A stretch of DNA of 63,228 bases from positions 1-63,228 of the forward strand of contig JAFTWB010000020.1 of the NCBI GenBank assembly GCA_017465505.1. The letters run 5' to 3'. Position numbers and translations under genes: made by a program. Under the pieces are notes generated by a model that saw only the letters and a list, made by a program, of their open reading frames with translations, had not been told where the DNA came from and searched no databases. Position 1 is the first letter of the stretch; each line of letters opens with the position of its first letter. Below are positions 48,640-57,619 of the stretch, in pieces. The DNA is from Clostridia bacterium (lineage in GTDB: Bacteria; Bacillota; Clostridia; Oscillospirales; Acutalibacteraceae).

Positions 48640-49491
48640 TTACGCGGCTTTACTCCGAATTTCAAACGGAGTAAGGCCGTCTTTTAAGTTGATACGTTCA
48701 TAATTGTAGAATTGAACATATTCAGCAACAGCCTGTTCAACCTCTGTTCGATTAGCAAATTTCATATGATATAAACATTCCGTTTTAAGAGTACCAAAGA
48801 AATTTTCCATAGCAGCATTGTCATAAGGACAACCGGGACTGGACATTGACGGCTTAATGTGGTACTCTGTAAGCAGGTCATGATATGCTTGGGATGTGTA
48901 TTGCGACCCTTGGTCACTGTGGAGTGCGAGTCCATCAGTGACCTTTTCTTTTTGTTTAGCTTCACGGATGGTATCTGTAACAAGAGAAGCCGTCATATCA
49001 GAACCTATACGATAAGCAATTACCATCTTTCCACATAAATCTACAACAGCACACATATACACCATTCCTTTAGCTGTCGAAATATATGTAATATCCGTTA
49101 CCCAGAACTGATTAGGCAGAGCCTGATCAAATTGGCGGTTAAGAAGATTTGGATATTTGTGTAAAGCTTTTTGATATCGCATATATGGTCTTCTCCTACG
49201 CACTTTTGACAGCAAATCATATTTACGCATAATGCGTAAAATGGCTTTAAGATTAACATTTTTCTTGTGTTTTCTTTTGAGCCATCGACGAATACGACGA
49301 CAACCATAAGTTTGTTTGCTATTTGTTTGAATTTCTGTAATCAAATCAACCAACCATTTGTCTTTGCTTTCCTTACCCTGTCGCTTTCTCCAAGCATAGT
49401 AACCACTTCGTGATACGCCGAATACTTTACACATTGCATCAACTGAATATTTCCCTCTAAACCTTTCAATTACTCTATATTTGAGTTTCAC
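48640..49491 (-). CDS. IS3-family transposase OrfB (DDE integrase core)
   Basis: The 283-residue protein has the HTH_21 segment (VFGVSRSGYYAWRKRQGK), then the rve integrase core with the DDE pattern: FWVTDITYI (Asp), GLALHSDQGSQYTS (Asp) and NAAMENFFGTLKTE (Glu), ending with the usual YNYERINLKDGLTP. The start is a GTG overlapping the OrfA stop (GTGA) right after GGAAGGAGG, so OrfB is likely made by translational coupling; a -1 frameshift fusion is the alternative. Confidence 0.93.
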   Translation of the reverse strand: MKLKYRVIERFRGKYSVDAMCKVFGVSRSGYYAWRKRQGKESKDKWLVDLITEIQTNSKQTYGCRRIRRWLKRKHKKNVNLKAILRIMRKYDLLSKVRRRRPYMRYQKALHKYPNLLNRQFDQALPNQFWVTDITYISTAKGMVYMCAVVDLCGKMVIAYRIGSDMTASLVTDTIREAKQKEKVTDGLALHSDQGSQYTSQAYHDLLTEYHIKPSMSSPGCPYDNAAMENFFGTLKTECLYHMKFANRTEVEQAVAEYVQFYNYERINLKDGLTPFEIRSKAA

Positions 49492-49790
49492 CTCCTTCCA
49501 ACTTCTGACAGAAAATTTTGCAATAACTCCACTTGCATACGCAATTGTGCCAATTCGTTCTTTTGGCGTATTTCTTCTGTTGCTTCCGTTTTCCTCGGAC
49601 GACCTTGAGGTCGAGGAATATATCCGTTTTCTATTAACCGCTGTTTTCTTCGATAACGTGTCGCAAGTTGTTTTACCTGCTCTTTTGTTAATCCAAGTAT
49701 TTTACCAATTTCTCTGTTGGTTTTTCCTGCTTCCTTTAATCTGAAAACTTCTTCTGTTAAACTTAATACTTTTGTATATTTTCTTGACAT
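49488..49790 (-). CDS. IS3-family transposase OrfA (helix-turn-helix)
   Basis: The 100-residue protein carries an N-terminal helix-turn-helix (EEVFRLKEAGKTNREIGKIL followed by GLTKEQV) and a C-terminal helix that could form a leucine zipper (KNELAQLRMQVELLQNFLSE). It binds the terminal repeats and helps OrfB. It begins just inside the right inverted repeat. Confidence 0.88.
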   Translation of the reverse strand: MSRKYTKVLSLTEEVFRLKEAGKTNREIGKILGLTKEQVKQLATRYRRKQRLIENGYIPRPQGRPRKTEATEEIRQKNELAQLRMQVELLQNFLSEVGRR

Positions 49791-50391: not shown

Positions 50392-50423
50392 TTCAATGAA
50401 ATTTCAATCTTTTGTGCTATAAT
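50392..50423 (+). promoter_or_regulatory. TTCAAT direct repeats and promoter of the two-component operon
   Basis: TTCAAT occurs at 50392-50397 and 50403-50408, exactly 11 bp apart, and a -10 box TATAAT lies at 50418-50423. There is no good -35 box, as usual for promoters where an OmpR-class regulator sits over the -35 region. The same layout precedes the VTC operon. Confidence 0.75.
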
Positions 50424-50445
50424 GATATCAGGCGGAGGTGTACCT

Positions 50446-51129
50446 ATGAGAATTTTGCTGGTTGAAGACGAAAAGAGAATGGCTCAGGCGTTGTGTGAAA
50501 TACTTCGTCAGGAAAAATACGAGGTAGACCATTATGCAAACGGTGTTGATGGTATGTCAGCCATTGAAAGCAATATCTATGACATTGTGATTCTTGACGT
50601 TATGCTTCCGGGTATGAACGGCTTTGAAATTGCACGAAATGCCCGAAGCAAGGGCGTTAAAACCCCCATACTAATGCTTACCGCCAAAGCTGAAGTGGAC
50701 GATAAGGTAACAGGGCTTGACAGCGGAGCAGACGATTATCTCACAAAGCCTTTTATGACAAAGGAGCTTCTGGCTCGACTTCGGGCTCTTGGCAGAAGAA
50801 GCCTTGGCACAGCCTTTGGTGAGCTTTCCTTTGGGGATATTGCTCTTGACGTCAACACCCTTACTCTTTCCTGCAAAACAAGTGCTCAGAGTGTGCGGCT
50901 CAGCGAAAAAGAGTACAAAATACTTGAATATCTTATTGTTAACCAAGGTCAAATCCTCACCCGTGAGCAATTGGCACTTAAAATCTGGGGCTTTGAAAGC
51001 GAAGCCGAATATAACAACGTAGAGGTTTATATGTCCTTTACCCGAAAAAAGCTTTCCTTTGTGGAAGCAAAAACCGAAATCAAGGCGGTGCGAGGAGTGG
51101 GTTACGAATTGAGGTGCGATGATGTTTAA
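50446..51129 (+). CDS. OmpR/PhoB-family response regulator
   Basis: The 227-residue protein has a receiver domain with phospho-acceptor Asp51 (DIVILDVMLPG), the acidic pair near residues 8-9 (EDEK), the switch Thr in MLTAKAE and the Lys in LTKPF, followed by a winged-helix domain (LSEKEYKILEYLIVNQGQIL; VEVYMSFTRKKL; AVRGVGYEL). It would bind DNA as a head-to-tail dimer at direct repeats. GGCGGAGGTG precedes the ATG at 50446. It overlaps the histidine kinase gene and is the likely reader of the TTCAAT boxes. Confidence 0.93.
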   Translation: MRILLVEDEKRMAQALCEILRQEKYEVDHYANGVDGMSAIESNIYDIVILDVMLPGMNGFEIARNARSKGVKTPILMLTAKAEVDDKVTGLDSGADDYLTKPFMTKELLARLRALGRRSLGTAFGELSFGDIALDVNTLTLSCKTSAQSVRLSEKEYKILEYLIVNQGQILTREQLALKIWGFESEAEYNNVEVYMSFTRKKLSFVEAKTEIKAVRGVGYELRCDDV

Positions 51130-52366
51130 AAAATCAAGAAGAAAAATCGTTGCCGCAATAATGTCCGTGCTGGTGGTATTGTGGGTAGGAACATTAGGCG
51201 TTATTTATACATCAAGCTATTTTGAAATGAAAAAACAGAACGAGGAGATTTTAAAGGCACACGCCCAGATGTATAATCTGCCAAAGGTTATTGACCAGAT
51301 GAAGCCGCCTTCAAAGCCTCACGGCGGCAATCATCGGTTTGACAAGGGCTTTGCCGAAACACCAAGGTTTCAGCTTTCCACCTTTTATTCCGTGGCGGTT
51401 TCTTATGAGGGTGAGGTTCTGGACGTGAAAAACGAGCAGTCTGAGGTTCACAGCGACGACAAGCTCAAGGCACTTGCCCTTGAAATTATAAAAAGCACAG
51501 ATGAAACAGGGGCAGAGGATAACCTCGCTTACTATAAAACCGACAAAGGCAGCTATACCCTTGTCACCTTTATGGATAATACCCTCTTAAACGAAAGTGC
51601 CTGGACGCTCTTTCGTTATACTCTTATTTTCGGCGGAGCGGCGTTGGCGGTGTTCTTTCTTCTCTCTGTTTTTCTTGCAAGAAAAATCGTCAACCCTCTG
51701 GAAGAAAGCTACGAAAAGCAAAAGCAGTTTATTTCTGACGCAGGTCACGAGCTGAAAACTCCTGTTTCTGTAGTAAATGCCAATGCAGAGCTTCTCAGCC
51801 GTGAAATCGGTGAGAATCAGTGGCTACAGAATATTCAGTACGAAAATGAGCGGATGGGGCTGTTGGTAGGTCAGCTTCTTTCTCTTGCCAGAGCAGAGAA
51901 GGTGGCTCTTCAGAAGGAGCACATCGACTTCAGCCGTCTGGTGGCAGGCGAGGCACTGCCCTTTGAAAGCGTCGTCTTTGAAAAAGGGCTTAATCTCAGC
52001 ACCAACATATCACCCGATATAACCGTTGAGGGCGAGAGCTCTCAGCTTAAGCAGGTGGTTTCCATTTTGCTTGATAACGCTGTGTGTCACAGCGAAGACA
52101 AAGGCGAAATCCACCTTTCTCTTATAAAAGACCACGGCTTTGCCAAGCTCTCCGTTATCAACAAGGGCGAGGAAATTCCCAAAGAGCAGCGAGAGCAGAT
52201 TTTTCAGCGGTTTTATCGCGCCGATACTGCACGAAGCGGCGAGGATAAGCACTACGGCTTGGGCCTTGCCATTGCCAAGGCAATCGTGCTCTCTCACAAA
52301 GGACATATAGAGGTGCTTTGCTATGACGGCTTGGTGGAGTTTCGGGTGAAGCTTGCCGCTGTATAA
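51122..52366 (+). CDS. Sensor histidine kinase
   Basis: The 414-residue kinase has two membrane helices (about residues 10-33 and 158-182) around an extracytoplasmic domain of about 125 residues that is rich in His, Lys and Pro near its start. HisKA follows with phospho-acceptor His209 in DAGHELKTP and the HATPase domain with N-box LDNAVCHS and G-box YGLGLAIAK. There is no HAMP of normal length. The start may be 51119 or 51122 (ATGATG); GAGGTG upstream fits both. The signal is unknown. Confidence 0.93.
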   Translation: MFKKSRRKIVAAIMSVLVVLWVGTLGVIYTSSYFEMKKQNEEILKAHAQMYNLPKVIDQMKPPSKPHGGNHRFDKGFAETPRFQLSTFYSVAVSYEGEVLDVKNEQSEVHSDDKLKALALEIIKSTDETGAEDNLAYYKTDKGSYTLVTFMDNTLLNESAWTLFRYTLIFGGAALAVFFLLSVFLARKIVNPLEESYEKQKQFISDAGHELKTPVSVVNANAELLSREIGENQWLQNIQYENERMGLLVGQLLSLARAEKVALQKEHIDFSRLVAGEALPFESVVFEKGLNLSTNISPDITVEGESSQLKQVVSILLDNAVCHSEDKGEIHLSLIKDHGFAKLSVINKGEEIPKEQREQIFQRFYRADTARSGEDKHYGLGLAIAKAIVLSHKGHIEVLCYDGLVEFRVKLAAV

Positions 52367-52374
52367 ATTTAAAA

Positions 52375-52418
52375 ATCAATGAAAATTCAATAAAACTTCA
52401 ATCTTCCTCCTGTACAAT
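52375..52418 (+). promoter_or_regulatory. Three 11-bp-spaced TTCAAT repeats and promoter of the VTC operon
   Basis: ATCAAT (52375), TTCAAT (52386) and TTCAAT (52397) are spaced exactly 11 bp, one helical turn. A -10 box TACAAT follows at 52413-52418, ten bases after the last repeat. This matches the arrangement before the response-regulator gene, so the regulator probably controls itself and this operon. Confidence 0.75.
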
Positions 52419-52444
52419 GTTAGGCGTTGACAGGAGGTTTTTTT

Positions 52445-53170
52445 ATGTCCTTTCAAACGGTTTTCAAACGCTACGAGCTGAAATATATGCTCACCCTTTC
52501 TCAGAAAGAAAAGGTTATAAAGGCTATCTCGCCTTATATGAAGCCTGATAAATACGGCAGAACCACAATCCGCAACCTTTACTACGACACCGACACCTAC
52601 CTTTTAATCAGGCGGTCCATTGAAAAGCCTGCCTACAAAGAAAAGCTCAGGGTGCGTAGCTACGACAAAGCCCGGGAAAACAGCAGAGTTTTTGTGGAGC
52701 TTAAAAAGAAATATAAGCACGTTGTTTATAAACGCAGAGTTTCTCTGCCTTACAGTGAAGCCCTTTTGTGGCTCTCGGGAGAAAAGCACACCGATAAAAA
52801 CACCCAGATATCAAGAGAAATCGACTATTTCCTTGAGTATTACGGCACACTGCACCCCAGGGTTTTCCTTTCTTACGAAAGAGAGGCGTATTATTCTGTT
52901 GACTCTTCGGACTTTCGGGTAACCTTTGACGAAAACGTCCTTTGCAGACAGGATAATCTATCCCTTTGTGAAGAAGCTTATGGAGAGCGGATTCTTTCTG
53001 AGGGACAGGTGCTTATGGAAATCAAATGCAGTGGGGGTATACCTTTGTGGCTTACCGAGGTCTTATCCCGAGAGAAAATTTATAAAACATCCTTTTCAAA
53101 ATACGGAACGGCATACAGAACCTTGATTTTTCCTGAAATTCACACCTGCGGAGGAATTAAAAATGATTGA
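52445..53170 (+). CDS. VTC-domain (polyphosphate polymerase-like) protein
   Basis: The 241-residue protein is a VTC domain of the CYTH-like tunnel fold. Visible features are the Lys/Arg-rich strands typical of the phosphate tunnel: FKRYELKYML, NLYYDTDTY, YKEKLRVRSYD, VFVELKKKYKHVVYKRR, and QVLMEIKCSGG. In yeast this domain makes polyphosphate from ATP; bacterial copies next to DUF4956 lack a proven reaction. AGGAGG precedes the ATG at 52445. It overlaps the DUF4956 gene by 8 bp. Cytoplasmic, probably working at the membrane with DUF4956. Confidence 0.9.
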   Translation: MSFQTVFKRYELKYMLTLSQKEKVIKAISPYMKPDKYGRTTIRNLYYDTDTYLLIRRSIEKPAYKEKLRVRSYDKARENSRVFVELKKKYKHVVYKRRVSLPYSEALLWLSGEKHTDKNTQISREIDYFLEYYGTLHPRVFLSYEREAYYSVDSSDFRVTFDENVLCRQDNLSLCEEAYGERILSEGQVLMEIKCSGGIPLWLTEVLSREKIYKTSFSKYGTAYRTLIFPEIHTCGGIKND

Positions 53171-53858
53171 AAATTTATTTAAAGGCTTGTTCGATACGGA
53201 TTTAACGTCAGTTATAAGTGTGCCCAACTTTCTGCTTTGCGTTGGTACATCTCTTGTGCTGGGCATTTTAATGGCTCTTGCTTATATGTACCGCACACGC
53301 TACACAAAGAGCTTTGTCATAACCCTTGCTTTGCTTCCAGCGGTGGTTTGCGTGGTAATTATGATGGTAAACGGCAACGTGGGTGCAGGTGTAGCGGTGG
53401 CAGGTGCTTTCAGCCTTGTGAGATTCCGCTCTGTTCCCGGTACAGCTAAAGAAATCTGCACCCTTTTTCTGGCTATGGGTGCAGGGCTTATTGCAGGTAT
53501 GGGTTATTTGGGCTATGCCGCATTATTTACACTTCTTATGTGCATAGTTTTTGTTATCCTCAATCGCTTTGACCTCGGCACAAAGAAAAACTCCGGAAAA
53601 TTCAAGACCCTTACCGTAACCATTCCCGAGGATTTGGACTATTCGGGAATTTTTGACGATATTTTTGAGGAGTTTACTGTATCCTGTGACCTTGTAAGGG
53701 TGAAAAGCACCAATATGGGCAGTATGTTCAAGCTTACATACAACCTCATTCTTCGTGACGTTACCAAAGAAAAAGAAATGATTGATAGAATCCGTTGCAG
53801 AAACGGAAATCTTGAAATTGTGGTTTCCGCTCAGGAAACTGTCAGTGCAGAGCTTTAA
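53163..53858 (+). CDS. DUF4956 membrane protein
   Basis: The 231-residue protein has about four transmembrane helices in the first 135 residues (FLLCVGTSLVLGILMALAYM; ALLPAVVCVVIMMV; GAGLIAGMGYLGYAALF), then a soluble C-terminal domain of about 95 residues (GKFKTLTVTIPEDLDYSG). The segment GAFSLVRFRSVPGTAKEI is the recognisable family signature. DUF4956 proteins typically occur beside VTC-domain proteins, CotH kinases and Cthe_2159-type proteins. Function is unknown; a membrane channel or scaffold for the VTC product is an inference. Confidence 0.88.
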   Translation: MIENLFKGLFDTDLTSVISVPNFLLCVGTSLVLGILMALAYMYRTRYTKSFVITLALLPAVVCVVIMMVNGNVGAGVAVAGAFSLVRFRSVPGTAKEICTLFLAMGAGLIAGMGYLGYAALFTLLMCIVFVILNRFDLGTKKNSGKFKTLTVTIPEDLDYSGIFDDIFEEFTVSCDLVRVKSTNMGSMFKLTYNLILRDVTKEKEMIDRIRCRNGNLEIVVSAQETVSAEL

Positions 53859-53868
53859 GGAGGCTTTT

Positions 53869-55674
53869 ATGAAAAGATTTTTACCCTTATTTTTAGTTTT
53901 CCTGCTTTTGCTCTCGGGCTGTACCTCTGACTTTGAGCCTGACGAGAGTCTGCCTCAGACCGCTCAGGCAAGTGAAAGCACTCAGGTAAGTGAAAGCACT
54001 CAGGCAGCTCCCCAAAACCCCAACAACGAAATGTTTACCGACAGGGACCTGAGAAACGAATACGACTTGAGCAAGGCAGTTAAAATTGAGCTTAACAAAA
54101 CAAGTGTTCGGGCAGACTCTGAAAGCGTTAAGATATCCGGCTCAACGGTAACAATTACAGAAGAAGCAACCTATGTTGTTTCCGGTGAGCTTGAAAACGG
54201 AAGCTTGGTGGTAAATGCTCCCCAAAGCGGAAAGCTTCAGATTGTTTTAAACGGAGCAAACATCCACAGCGAAACCTCAGCCGCTTTGTATATTCTTCAG
54301 GCTGACAAGGTTTTCGTTACACTTGCACAGGGCTCTGAAAATACCCTATCCAACGGCGGAAGCTTTACGGCAATTGACGAAAATAACATCGACTCAGCCC
54401 TTTTTTCAAAACAGGATTTAACCTTAAACGGCGAGGGCTCTCTGACAGTTACCTCTCCCGTGGGCCACGGCATTGTATGCAAGGACGACCTTGTAATTAC
54501 CGATGGTGTGTATACAGTAAACTGTGCAAGCCACTGTCTGGACGCAAACGACAGTGTGCGAGTGGCCAATGCTTCTTTAATTCTTAATAGCGGCAAGGAC
54601 GCAATCCACTGCGAAAATTCAGACGACACCTCAAAAGGCTTTGTATACATAGCCGACGGCAGTATTAAGGCAGAGGCTCAGGGAGATGGCATTTCCTCAA
54701 GTGCCTACACCCTTATAGAAGGCGGCGAGATTGATATTCTTGCAGGCGGCGGCAGTGAAAACGCTCAGCAGAAGCAGTCCGAGTTTTTCGGTGGCTTTAT
54801 GAGCGGTGGTCGTCCTCACGATATGTACGAGGAAACAGAAAGCACCGAAGAGGATTCTGCCAGTATGAAAGGCATTAAAGCCGCAGGAAACCTTACTGTT
54901 TCGGCAGGCAGTATTACGGTGAATTCTGCTGATGATTCGCTTCACAGTGACGCCTGCGTAAGTATCAGCGGAGGTGAGCTTTTCCTTACTTCAGGGGATG
55001 ACGCAATCCACGGCGAGGAAACTCTCACGGTTACAGACGGCACAATAGATATATCCGAAAGCTACGAAGGTCTGGAAGCTCTCAACATAGATATTCAGGG
55101 AGGAGATATTAAGCTTAAGGCAACTGACGACGGGCTTAACGCCGCAGGCGGAGTTGACGAAAGCGGCTATACAGGAGGCCGTGACGGTATGTTTGGCGGC
55201 GGCCCGGGAGAAATGGGCGGCAAGGGCGGTATGTCGGCAAATTCCAACGGCAGCATTAAAATTTCAGGCGGCACTCTCTATATAAACTCCTCGGGAGACG
55301 GTCTGGACGCAAACGGTACTTTGGAGATTTCAGGAGGCTACACCACAGTTACAGGCCCGACTCAAGGAGATACCGCAACTCTTGATTACGACAAAACAGG
55401 GGTAATCACAGGGGGTACCTTCATTGGTACAGGTGCCTCGGGTGGTATGGCACAGAGCTTCAGCACCTCAGAGCAGGGCGTTGTGGCGGTAAACACAGGA
55501 CACCAGAGTGCCGAAACAGAAATCATCCTTAAAGATTCCCAAGGCAACACCCTTATTTCTCACAAGCCTGAGCTTGATTTTGCCGTGGTTATTCTTTCTT
55601 CTCCCGAAGTTGTAAAGGGAGAGATATACTCACTGACAGTAGGCTCAGAGTCAGGAGAATTTGAAGCATATTAA
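53869..55674 (+). CDS. Cthe_2159-type carbohydrate-binding beta-helix lipoprotein
   Basis: The 601-residue protein has a lipoprotein signal (LLLLSGC, Cys18), a Ser/Thr/Gln-rich linker (about 20-55) and a long right-handed beta-helix with repeats such as GTVTITEEATYVVSG-type, NGEGSLTVTS, DAIHCENSDD, ADDSLHSDACVSISGG and SGDGLDANGTLEISGG. This pattern matches the Cthe_2159 family, whose founding member binds pectin-like polymers with calcium. Gly-rich insertions occur around 300-330 and 440-460. TAAGGAGG places the start at the ATG at 53869, although the frame extends into DUF4956. It would sit on the outer face of the membrane. Confidence 0.88.
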   Translation: MKRFLPLFLVFLLLLSGCTSDFEPDESLPQTAQASESTQVSESTQAAPQNPNNEMFTDRDLRNEYDLSKAVKIELNKTSVRADSESVKISGSTVTITEEATYVVSGELENGSLVVNAPQSGKLQIVLNGANIHSETSAALYILQADKVFVTLAQGSENTLSNGGSFTAIDENNIDSALFSKQDLTLNGEGSLTVTSPVGHGIVCKDDLVITDGVYTVNCASHCLDANDSVRVANASLILNSGKDAIHCENSDDTSKGFVYIADGSIKAEAQGDGISSSAYTLIEGGEIDILAGGGSENAQQKQSEFFGGFMSGGRPHDMYEETESTEEDSASMKGIKAAGNLTVSAGSITVNSADDSLHSDACVSISGGELFLTSGDDAIHGEETLTVTDGTIDISESYEGLEALNIDIQGGDIKLKATDDGLNAAGGVDESGYTGGRDGMFGGGPGEMGGKGGMSANSNGSIKISGGTLYINSSGDGLDANGTLEISGGYTTVTGPTQGDTATLDYDKTGVITGGTFIGTGASGGMAQSFSTSEQGVVAVNTGHQSAETEIILKDSQGNTLISHKPELDFAVVILSSPEVVKGEIYSLTVGSESGEFEAY

Positions 55675-55685
55675 AAGAGGTTTAT

Positions 55686-56678
55686 ATGAATCCGGGCTAT
55701 TTAATCAAACGCATTGCAAAAATGAACTATACTGCGTTTTTTCAAAAGTTATCCTCAATTCACAACAAAACAGGCAAGAGCAGGCTTTATCTTCTTTGGG
55801 ATATGTTTAACTGCGGTGTTAAGTACGGTGCAGGCTATATAGATTACGACTTGTTTGAAATGTATAACCTCACCCCTTCTCAGCGAAACACCTACATCAC
55901 CCGAGGCAGAAACAACGCTCTTGTAAAAAAATACAATAACGCAGAATTTACGCATTTTTTTCATAACAAGGCACAGTTTAACACCCTGTTTTCCGATTAT
56001 ATCGGCAGGGAGTGGATTCTTTCAGATGACAGCAAGGAGGCAGTCCTTGATTTTATAAGAAAAAGAGATGTGTTTGTTTCAAAGCCTGTTGACGGCTCTT
56101 GCGGTAAGGGTATAGAAAAAATTTCGGTTTCAGATTATCCCGACGCAGAAAGCATTTATAACAAGCTGAAAAACACGGGCAAGAGGCTTCTGCTGGAAGA
56201 TGTGATACCCCAGCACCCACTGCTCAATGAGATTTACCCCTTAGCCGTTAACACTCTGAGGGTTGTAACCATACACGCCGATGGCAAAACCAAAATTGTG
56301 TGCACCTATTTTCGCATAGGCAATAACTTAAGCTTTGTGGATAATTTCAACAGTGCAGGAATGGTTGCCCCTGTTGATGAAATTACAGGTATGGTAAAAG
56401 ACAAGGCAATAGACAAAAACAAAGTCTTGTATAAGGTTCACCCCCATAGCGGTGCATCGATTAAAGGCTTTCGCTTTCCTTTCTGGGAGCAGGCTATGGA
56501 AATGGTCACAAAGGCTTGCTCTGTTGTGCCTCAGATGGGCTACATAGGCTGGGACGTTGCCTTTACTCCCCAAGGCCCCTGTCTGGTAGAGGGTAACCCC
56601 TTTCCCGGTCACGATATTTACCAGCTTCCTGAGCATACTCCGGATAAACACGGAGTATACGAGAAGTTTATTTTATAA
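55686..56678 (+). CDS. Sugar-transfer-associated ATP-grasp protein
   Basis: The 330-residue protein has an N-terminal helical part (to about 110) and an ATP-grasp domain: VSKPVDGSCGKGIEKI (nucleotide loop), RLLLEDVIPQHPLLNEIYP, NTLRVVTIHADGKTKIV, and the metal-binding end GYIGWDVAFTPQGPCLVEGNP. This fits the ATPgrasp_ST family, predicted ligases found in sugar and surface-polymer gene clusters. The gene lies 11 bp after the beta-helix lipoprotein gene. The substrate is unknown; peptide or amino-acid ligation to an envelope polymer is a guess. Confidence 0.85.
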   Translation: MNPGYLIKRIAKMNYTAFFQKLSSIHNKTGKSRLYLLWDMFNCGVKYGAGYIDYDLFEMYNLTPSQRNTYITRGRNNALVKKYNNAEFTHFFHNKAQFNTLFSDYIGREWILSDDSKEAVLDFIRKRDVFVSKPVDGSCGKGIEKISVSDYPDAESIYNKLKNTGKRLLLEDVIPQHPLLNEIYPLAVNTLRVVTIHADGKTKIVCTYFRIGNNLSFVDNFNSAGMVAPVDEITGMVKDKAIDKNKVLYKVHPHSGASIKGFRFPFWEQAMEMVTKACSVVPQMGYIGWDVAFTPQGPCLVEGNPFPGHDIYQLPEHTPDKHGVYEKFIL

Positions 56679-56722
56679 GCTTATAAAAAGACACCGAGCA
56701 CAATACCAAATTCTATACATAA

Positions 56723-56772
56723 AACATCAAAGCCTTCATCATTTATCGTGGTGAGGGCTTTGGTGTTTTTTT
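56723..56772 (+). terminator. Intrinsic terminator of the VTC operon
   Basis: A stem AACATCAAAGCC / GGCTTTGGTGTT with an inner CATCA/TGGTG pairing is followed by seven T residues. Confidence 0.88.
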
Positions 56773-56820
56773 AAATGAAAATAAAAGCATTTCACCTCAA
56801 AAAATTTTAAATGACAGAAA

Positions 56821-56864
56821 AGTCACTTAAAAGTCATTAAGGAGTCATTATCGGGATATAGAAT
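56821..56864 (+). promoter_or_regulatory. 11-bp-spaced AGTCA repeats and promoter of the duplicated-domain gene
   Basis: AGTCAC (56821), AGTCAT (56832) and AGTCAT (56843) are exactly 11 bp apart. A -10-like TAGAAT lies at 56859-56864, ten bases after the last repeat. Read as GTCATT, the units match TTCAAT at four of six positions at the same distance from the -10 box as in the regulator's own promoter. Control by the same response regulator or a close relative is inferred. Confidence 0.6.
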
Positions 56865-56896: not shown

Positions 56897-57619
56897 ATGG
56901 TTATGGTATTTATTATCTTAGTACTTGCAATTTGTGTTGTCTTTGGTGTGGCAGGGGTAAATGCCTATGTAATGGACAAGGGCGAAGAAATTGACTTGGA
57001 TTTAAACCTGGACAGATTTGACCTTGAAGAAAAGGAAAGCTTTGATTTCGCAATGAGCTTAAATGTTTTTCTTGAAGACAACACAACAGCCCCCGTTGAG
57101 TCTTTCGCTCAGTGGAATGCACAGCCTCAGGGCGATTACCAGTTTGTTGTAAGCGGTTCTCAGAAAGAGGGCTATGAGCTTACAGTAAAGGAAGCAGACT
57201 TTGACTGCACTATCACACCCTTGACTAACCTTGGCGAAAACGAAATGCGAGTAAGCATTATTAACGAAACAGAGGATTCTGTATCAGGCTTTGGTATGGA
57301 TTACACAATTGAGGGCGTAAGAGATGGCGGCAGCGGCGGCAGTGTAGCCGGCGGCACTATGGAAAAGGGCGATGAAATCAATTTAGACCTTATGCTCGAC
57401 GATACTGCTCTTAAGTCAGGAGAAAGCTTTTCTTTCGGTATGGGCGTAGAGGTTTATCTTGAAGACGGCACCACAGTTTATGTTCCCTTTTACGCTAAGT
57501 GGAATGCACAGCTTCAGAATGAATACAGATTTGTTGTAAGCGGTTCTCAGGCAGAGGGTTACATCATTGCTTGCCCTGACGCAGACTTTAACGGCACTAT
57601 CACACCTGCTGTGGGCTAA
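56897..57619 (+). CDS. Exported protein with two copies of an unrecognised ~85-residue domain
   Basis: The 240-residue protein has an N-terminal hydrophobic segment (residues 2-22), then two repeats. Repeat 1 starts DKGEEIDLDLNLDRFDL, repeat 2 starts EKGDEINLDLMLDDTAL; both contain VFLEDNTT/VYLEDGTT, a KWNAQ or QWNAQ segment, FVVSGSQ and a final DFxxTITP. A Gly/Ser-rich linker separates them. The domain looks like a beta-sandwich. I do not recognise the family. GAGAGG precedes the ATG. It is transcribed alone from a promoter with phased repeats. Confidence 0.72.
   Translation: MVMVFIILVLAICVVFGVAGVNAYVMDKGEEIDLDLNLDRFDLEEKESFDFAMSLNVFLEDNTTAPVESFAQWNAQPQGDYQFVVSGSQKEGYELTVKEADFDCTITPLTNLGENEMRVSIINETEDSVSGFGMDYTIEGVRDGGSGGSVAGGTMEKGDEINLDLMLDDTALKSGESFSFGMGVEVYLEDGTTVYVPFYAKWNAQLQNEYRFVVSGSQAEGYIIACPDADFNGTITPAVG

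Follow-up and report, generated by a model that had tools for sequence, protein, structure and literature searches.

The window analysed here is a stretch of 63,228 nt from a gut bacterium of the Clostridia (Acutalibacteraceae; assembly GCA_017465505.1, contig JAFTWB010000020.1). It carries a two-component system, consisting of a response regulator (RR) and a sensor histidine kinase (HK), which is followed on the same strand by genes for a VTC-domain protein, a DUF4956 membrane protein, a Cthe_2159-type protein and a sugar-transfer associated ATP-grasp protein (Table 1). An earlier note, made from the letters of the sequence, had proposed this gene order, which we confirmed from the reading frames and Pfam assignments, and had linked regulator and kinase with the VTC operon through repeated TTCAAT hexamers. 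That connection is supported by the present sequence analysis; the membership of the ATP-grasp gene is not, and the note was silent on the overlap of promoter and terminator, the exchange of cargo genes and the kinship of DUF4956 with MgtC that are described below. We consider it probable that RR and HK form an autoregulated system which activates the VTC operon, and that the terminator of the RR-HK genes and the VTC promoter form one fused element. This reading is drawn from sequence analysis: the operator arrays, their geometry and conservation, a covarying hairpin, swaps of cargo genes and protein homologies.

Table 1. Features of the two-component system and the VTC operon in the window.
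Feature	Position	Strand	Remarks
RR array TTCAAT-N5-TTCAAT	50392..50408	+	units at 50392 and 50403; kept in orthologs
Predicted RR −10 box, TATAAT	50418..50423	+	9 nt past array end
Response regulator, receiver and Trans_reg_C (OmpR/PhoB class), 227 aa	50446..51129	+	Pfam PF00072, PF00486
Sensor histidine kinase, 415 aa	51119..52366	+	Pfam PF00512, PF02518
VTC array ATCAAT, TTCAAT, TTCAAT	52375..52402	+	11-bp spacing; last two units kept in orthologs
Hairpin and T-tract across VTC promoter	52406..52444	+	RNA fold, covariation in relatives
Predicted VTC-operon −10 box, TACAAT	52413..52418	+	10 nt past array end
VTC-domain protein, 241 aa	52445..53170	+	PF09359, E 5.8e-40
DUF4956 membrane protein, 231 aa	53163..53858	+	PF16316
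Cthe_2159-type protein, 601 aa	53869..55674	+	PF14262, E 1.7e-96
Sugar-transfer associated ATP-grasp protein	55686..56678	+	PF14397; 11 nt after preceding gene
Terminator-like hairpin after ATP-grasp gene	56722..56768	+	terminator scan

Tandem hexamers with an 11-bp spacing are located at the −35 position of both promoters. Four of the five TTCAAT units that had been reported are exact (50392, 50403, 52386 and 52397), but the unit at 52375 reads ATCAAT, with one mismatch, and the VTC array thus consists of two exact units and a degenerate one. The claimed distance of 9–10 bases between array and −10 box was borne out by measurement (9 nt for RR, 10 nt for VTC), and it is because the arrays end so close to the −10 box that they lie over the −35 position.

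The window shows no enrichment of a lone TTCAAT (56 occurrences vs a shuffle mean of 65.8) or of a pair with up to two mismatches (19 vs 15.0), so that the exact pair must be tested. In the whole host genome (G000; 1.907 Mb in 30 contigs, 84% complete), TTCAATN5TTCAAT occurs exactly twice on the + strand, at the RR and the VTC promoter, and not at all on the other strand; the expectation from base composition is 0.57, and the reversed control pattern does not occur. When one mismatch is allowed, there are 21 places vs 10 for the control, and the whole-genome scan yielded no convincing array of this kind beyond the window promoters. The other places have at least two mismatches to TATAAT at 9–10 nt, with the exception of G000:C17:1395, which has TGTAAT (one mismatch) and lies within an open reading frame.

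Arrays with the same spacing and the same distance to the −10 box were present in orthologous operons, the comparison which the earlier note had proposed as a check. In 118 relatives searched with the N-terminal half of the kinase (E≤2e-20), exact TTCAAT arrays were found within the 1.5-kb flanks of the kinase match in 13/13 genomes, the host included, and a class-wide search of 391 genomes (E≤1e-15) added five genomes, four of which have arrays. Among 17 loci of weaker kinase paralogs, fetched out of a larger group (E about 1e-13 to 5e-6), no arrays were detected, so the presence of the array tracks the N-terminal half of the kinase. Position beside the kinase is the relevant test, as the pair pattern also occurs at background level, with at least one match anywhere in the genome in 51/118 genomes.

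A larger set of named loci comprises the best 80 of 104 relatives, obtained by a contig scan with an alignment of 15 kinase N-termini. These loci (719,390 nt in total) are mainly from Oscillospiraceae, Ruminococcus, Lachnospiraceae and unclassified Clostridia metagenome-assembled genomes, with few isolates, examples of isolated relatives that share the layout being Petralouisia muris (L222) and Roseburia sp. 1XD42-69 (L225), and they overlap the genome set (L190 = G020, L193 = G330, L196 = G025, L197 = G010, L203 = G494 and L262 = G110). Of the TTCAAT pairs in these loci, 108 are on the strand of the kinase and a single one is on the opposite strand; spacers of 1–4 and 6–15 nt gave no pair on the kinase strand and two on the other. 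Exact arrays were found in 39 and one-mismatch arrays in 15 of the 74 testable RR promoters, and in 60 and 7, respectively, of the 75 testable regions following HK. The best −10 gap, searched at 9–11 nt, was 9 nt in 43, 10 nt in 10 and 11 nt in one of the 54 RR promoters with an array, and 10 nt in 65 of the 67 effector promoters with an array. Wherever VTC comes first among the genes recognised downstream of the kinase, an exact or one-mismatch array is present (51/51); the eight post-kinase regions that have no array contain no recognised VTC gene, and one of these loci (L267) has an array further downstream. The regions upstream of VTC were also compared for the window together with 52 fetched stretches. 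In 33 of these 53 regions some 6-mer is repeated without mismatch at a distance of exactly 11, compared to 0–8 regions for the other distances from 6 to 33, and 7-mers recur at this distance in 22 regions vs 0–6 elsewhere, although the regions are related and thus not independent.

There are also five loci (L200, L204, L208, L210 and L235) where TTCAAT arrays at 1440–1830, with a −10 box at 9 nt, precede an operon for an FtsX-type permease and an ABC ATPase upstream of the regulator. The operon was scanned in L208, to which the other four are 82–92% identical, and it may represent a further member of the regulon in some species.

The regulator combines a receiver with a winged-helix Trans_reg_C domain, both above the Pfam cut-off. 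It is not filed as PhoB because its score against the PhoB model (182.6 bits) is below the cut-off of 296.2. An extracytoplasmic sensor region (about aa 30–165) is predicted for the kinase. Just upstream of the regulator gene (48640–49790) are two open reading frames which, from their translations, resemble insertion-sequence transposases.

Three motif classes are backed by exact spacer counts: TTCAAT, which accompanies the window-type regulator, TTTAAG and TTCATA. Many VTC operons (L062–L076) lie beside a different, often divergently oriented regulator and have TTTAAG pairs with 11-bp spacing; in 18 loci, mostly beside such a different RR, the pairs with spacer 5 number 15 on the VTC strand and one on the other, and one pair has spacer 8. 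This wiring of the same cargo is apparently independent. The helix EYNNVEVYMSFTRKKL is almost invariant in 15 regulators of the TTCAAT class (the window and 14 chosen relatives); the other set, represented by 12 regulators, has different residues in and around the recognition helix, and we infer that these differences cause the change of motif. VTC operons for which no neighbouring regulator was recognised (L035–L048, L078) carry a TTCATA array. A search of ten genomes with its 18-mer, allowing up to two mismatches, hit the VTC promoter in 10/10 and, in 4/10 genomes, five places elsewhere, all with two mismatches; two of these five places were examined and showed no query-protein match. That this class represents a broad Pho regulon was rejected, since the 18-mer is nearly confined to the VTC promoter. 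A TTCACA class, seen by eye, was dropped as there are no exact pairs at any spacer from 0 to 15.

Kinase, regulator and operator of this one kind precede several types of cargo: VTC-DUF4956-Cthe_2159 as in the window, VTC2-DUF4956b-CotH, VTC2-DUF4956b-Cthe_2159, operons starting with Cthe_2159, and other proteins, some with weak beta-helix matches. An RR+HK tree of 75 rows was computed by a quick method for the window together with 74 of the 80 named loci, 56 rows being labelled. When the four cargo labels were placed on it, 10 changes were required vs a minimum of 3 and 26.1 for shuffled labels, i.e. cargo types are clustered. Well supported branches alone force at least four changes for each of the two main types, and by this sequence comparison the cargo behind the regulator has been swapped repeatedly. 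Regulator and kinase are 84% and 72% identical to those of the window in G494, which has the CotH type, and 83% and 73% in G330, which has the Cthe_2159 type; the VTC protein of a CotH-type operon (G110) is only about 23% identical to that of the window.

The VTC promoter itself overlaps a hairpin. Outer arms CCTCCTGT (52406–52413) and ACAGGAGG (52430–52437) are 16 nt apart, with an inner stem joined via a bulge, and are followed by TTTTTTT (52438–52444) and the VTC start codon, so that a stable hairpin and a U-rich tract are combined as in an intrinsic terminator. Since the −10 box sits in and beside the 5' arm, RNA read through from HK would form the terminator while RNA started at the promoter would not. 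The RNA of 52403–52446 folds with −19.2 kcal/mol (z −5.5; 0/200 shuffles as good), and no fold was obtained for RNA from near the predicted VTC start site; median folding energies are −18.3 kcal/mol for read-through RNA and −3.2 kcal/mol for promoter-started RNA. There is little room for another terminator, as the median distance from the HK stop codon to the array is 12 nt.

In the genome set, the hairpin occurs in 15/16 effector promoters (the window and 15 others; one G007 array beside another kinase is omitted from the count), having been lost in G080, and in 0/12 RR promoters. Among the 80 named loci, 48/67 effector promoters but only 2/54 RR promoters reach an inverted-repeat score of at least 8. 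In an alignment of 34 rows (the window and 33 of the 67 effector promoters), 95% of the cells are paired, and none of 500 shuffles matches the number of paired cells, of double-change cells or the covariation score; 4/500 shuffles reach the count of double-change pairs and 21/500 that of pair types. The full set, i.e. the window and all 67 effector promoters (66 distinct rows), has 87.4% of its cells paired vs 37–53% in slid versions. Again 0/500 shuffles reach the paired cells, the double-change cells (45 vs 12.3) or the covariation score, and 1/500 reaches the number of pair types. In L149 (G080:C11), the kinase gene is disrupted near its start and two arrays are retained, the second of which precedes a CotH-family gene and has no right hairpin arm.

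The inverted repeat at 52406–52437 is clear, and its midpoint falls near the predicted start site; it might also be read as the DNA operator of a second, dimeric regulator rather than as an RNA terminator, but we think this improbable. The arms vary yet pairing is kept: the 48 promoters scoring at least 8 have 33 different arm pairs. The in-stem mismatches on the sense strand (59 distinct promoters with at least 8/12 Watson-Crick pairs) are 24 T.G, 6 A.C or C.A and 15 others, an excess of T.G that suggests a pattern favoured by sense RNA, although the right arm is also constrained by the Shine-Dalgarno sequence, which accounts for part of this excess. At least five T per 7 nt follow the arm in 50/60 hairpins, the background being 5%, and the five array promoters of the FtsX-ABC operons, which are located elsewhere, lack the repeat (5/5). 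A more serious contender, though still on the unlikely side, is that the hairpin hides the VTC Shine-Dalgarno sequence in read-through RNA and so blocks translation, not transcription. In VTC-type operons the 3' arm indeed contains the Shine-Dalgarno sequence in 20/26 hairpins, with the start codon mostly 6–8 nt past the arm. In VTC2-type operons, however, the arm mostly precedes the start codon by 34–48 nt (by 7 nt in two cases) and the Shine-Dalgarno sequence mostly 18–30 nt downstream of the arm, yet the hairpin is kept in 21/24 cases and the T-tract in 17 of those 21. Because of this remote position, the hairpin does not represent just Shine-Dalgarno pairing, which may nevertheless act additionally in window-type operons.

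It is very unlikely that another OmpR-class regulator, such as a PhoP-type phosphate regulator, binds the arrays and that the adjacent kinase is unrelated. Other regulators of this class do use 11-bp hexamer repeats (PMC3335776), and sister VTC operons with no recognised adjacent RR have TTCATA instead. TTCAAT arrays, however, accompany this clade of kinases but are absent from the fetched paralog loci, they are replaced by TTTAAG pairs beside a different RR that has other recognition-helix residues, the host genome has no other convincing array, and the TTCATA arrays are distributed unlike a broad Pho regulon. Repression of the VTC operon by the regulator would be compatible with the position of the array taken alone; we regard it as quite unlikely too, given that the array lies over −35 and ends 9–10 nt before a near-consensus −10 box, as in class II activators.

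Several observations weigh against the favoured reading of an autoregulated activator with a promoter-terminator fusion. One kinase ortholog of 18 (G336, 34% identity) has no array, and by the criteria used an array is missing from 20/74 RR promoters and 8/75 post-HK regions, while the −10 gaps came from a search restricted to 9–11 nt. The inverted-repeat score is below 8 in 19/67 effector promoters, 17 of which were omitted from the 34-row alignment, and in the full set the number of double-changed pairs (7/10) is unexceptional, as 127/500 shuffles are as high. Conservation of the 3' arm must in part have another cause in VTC-type operons, where the Shine-Dalgarno sequence is usually inside it, and a simple terminator scan omits the window hairpin. 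Moreover, the array and hairpin counts are not independent, because the sequences share kinship.

In the process that we favour, the kinase would respond to a signal and phosphorylate the regulator, which would bind head-to-tail at the TTCAAT hexamers 11 bp apart, over the −35 position, and so act as a class II activator both on its own promoter and on the VTC promoter. RNA read through from HK would have both hairpin arms and terminate just before the VTC start codon, whereas RNA initiated at the VTC promoter would have no 5' arm and escape termination, so that the envelope operon would be expressed only with an active kinase. As its cargo, the switch would control VTC, the MgtC-like DUF4956 protein and a Cthe_2159 beta-helix protein that is secreted; relatives have a CotH-type operon instead. 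The output of the switch would be envelope-related. Such a promoter-in-terminator layout, if true, would provide compact insulation, allowing a regulator gene to stand directly before its target without leakage. More tentatively, one may imagine a transferable cassette of kinase, operator and self-bypassing terminator, behind which different VTC/MgtC-like envelope modules are swapped. VTC would make an anionic polymer inside the cell, DUF4956 would be a membrane partner for its export or for Mg/phosphate coupling, and a CotH kinase or Cthe_2159 beta-helix would be an interchangeable outer part.

The VTC protein, present in 64/118 genomes including the host, has a polyphosphate-polymerase fold, and polyphosphate synthesis is suggested by this similarity of fold. 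The family profile matches yeast Vtc4 (3g3q) with E 1.3e-11; the alignment of the first part has an E of about 1e-11, and that of the C-terminal EVK/SK part is only weak. Basic tunnel residues are conserved, those invariant among 20 aligned sequences being R15, E17, K19, R75, R77, E91, K93, R152, R164, E198, K200 and K225 (numbered from 52427). At E≤0.01, the VTC domain alone was found in the 241 aa, with no SPX or Vtc1-type membrane domain. The Cthe_2159-type protein, which has a PF14262 domain and, from inspection of its sequence, a lipobox-like start, matches the solved relative 4peu with E 2.6e-29; glycan (pectin) binding is a property of this family.

DUF4956 can be related to MgtC. An hhalign comparison of 95 DUF4956 sequences (75 after filtering) with 30 MgtC sequences gave a probability of 95.7% and E 9e-9, colinear over 201 columns that cover the membrane and C-terminal regions; reversed-profile controls gave 0.4% and 1.9%, and a two-sequence MgtC profile 29.7% only. 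The Pfam MgtC model PF02308 matches 10/21 DUF4956 members weakly (best E 0.035), does not list the window protein, which thus stays outside the family cut-off, and in G082 finds a DUF4956-like gene after the VTC gene with E 3.5e-4, below the cut-off. We regard DUF4956 as a remote relative of MgtC, outside PF02308, and this relationship as a functional lead for the family.

The ATP-grasp gene had been counted among the members of the system. Its protein was not matched next to the operon in any of the 80 named loci or the 52 stretches, several of which end soon after or within the operon, and the gene is probably a local addition, a passenger. An anti-phage role was rejected, the best PADLOC match having E 0.0098. 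Further downstream there is a third phased array (GTCACT, GTCATT and GTCATT at 56822, 56833 and 56844), which ends 9 nt before TAGAAT and precedes a gene for a 240-aa repeat protein (56897–57619) that is matched in 3/118 genomes, the host included. GTCAYTN5GTCAYT has no second place in the host genome. Another OmpR-class regulator may act at 56822–56864; the end of TAGAAT coincides with 56864, the coordinate at which the earlier note had ended its operon region.

Of known systems, the yeast VTC complex has a component, Vtc4, which the window protein resembles in its VTC domain with aligned E/K/R positions, but here the VTC domain stands alone and the adjacent gene codes for an MgtC-like membrane protein. 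The DUF4956 protein in turn is colinear with the MgtC family, and differs from it in being unmatched by the Pfam model and in being located in VTC operons. Escherichia coli PhoB is an OmpR-class regulator whose tandem sites, the Pho box, replace the −35 element; the window regulator belongs to the same class and likewise has tandem sites in place of −35, but its score is below the PhoB cut-off.

In the passages concerned, PhoB and VanR are named as contacting sigma, and Salmonella PhoP is described as using hexamer direct repeats 5 nt apart, located 12 nt before the −10 box, for class II activation (PMC3335776). The window arrays resemble this PhoP box (mgtA, phoP) as a direct hexamer repeat about one turn upstream of −10, and the regulator's own gene (there phoP) is a target in both; compared with what is described for PhoP, the window system has another motif, a distance of 9–10 rather than 12 nt, two promoters in the host, the overlap with a hairpin and other cargo. 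Among the literature matches listed, mostly judged without opening, we recognised neither a dedicated two-component system or TTCAAT operator for the VTC modules nor a promoter-terminator overlap of this system.

A group consisting of CotH, polyphosphate polymerase, DUF4956 and DUF4832 is reported to adjoin pel clusters of Gram-positive bacteria (PMC7112168), and NELoc-2 of C. perfringens to contain a VTC-CotH cluster (PMC2879425). In the passages on these two groups there is no mention of a two-component system attached to them, of a phased operator or of a promoter overlapping a terminator. VTC-DUF4956-CotH/Cthe_2159 modules, which were known to cluster, would gain a sensor of their own, a precisely defined operator and a promoter that can be switched, and their function would therefore become testable by activating a single kinase. 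The modules have in common with the pel-adjacent group a VTC-type polymerase, DUF4956 and CotH, and with NELoc-2 the combination of VTC and CotH; unlike the window operon, those groups, as the passages describe them, adjoin Pel or other cell-wall genes.

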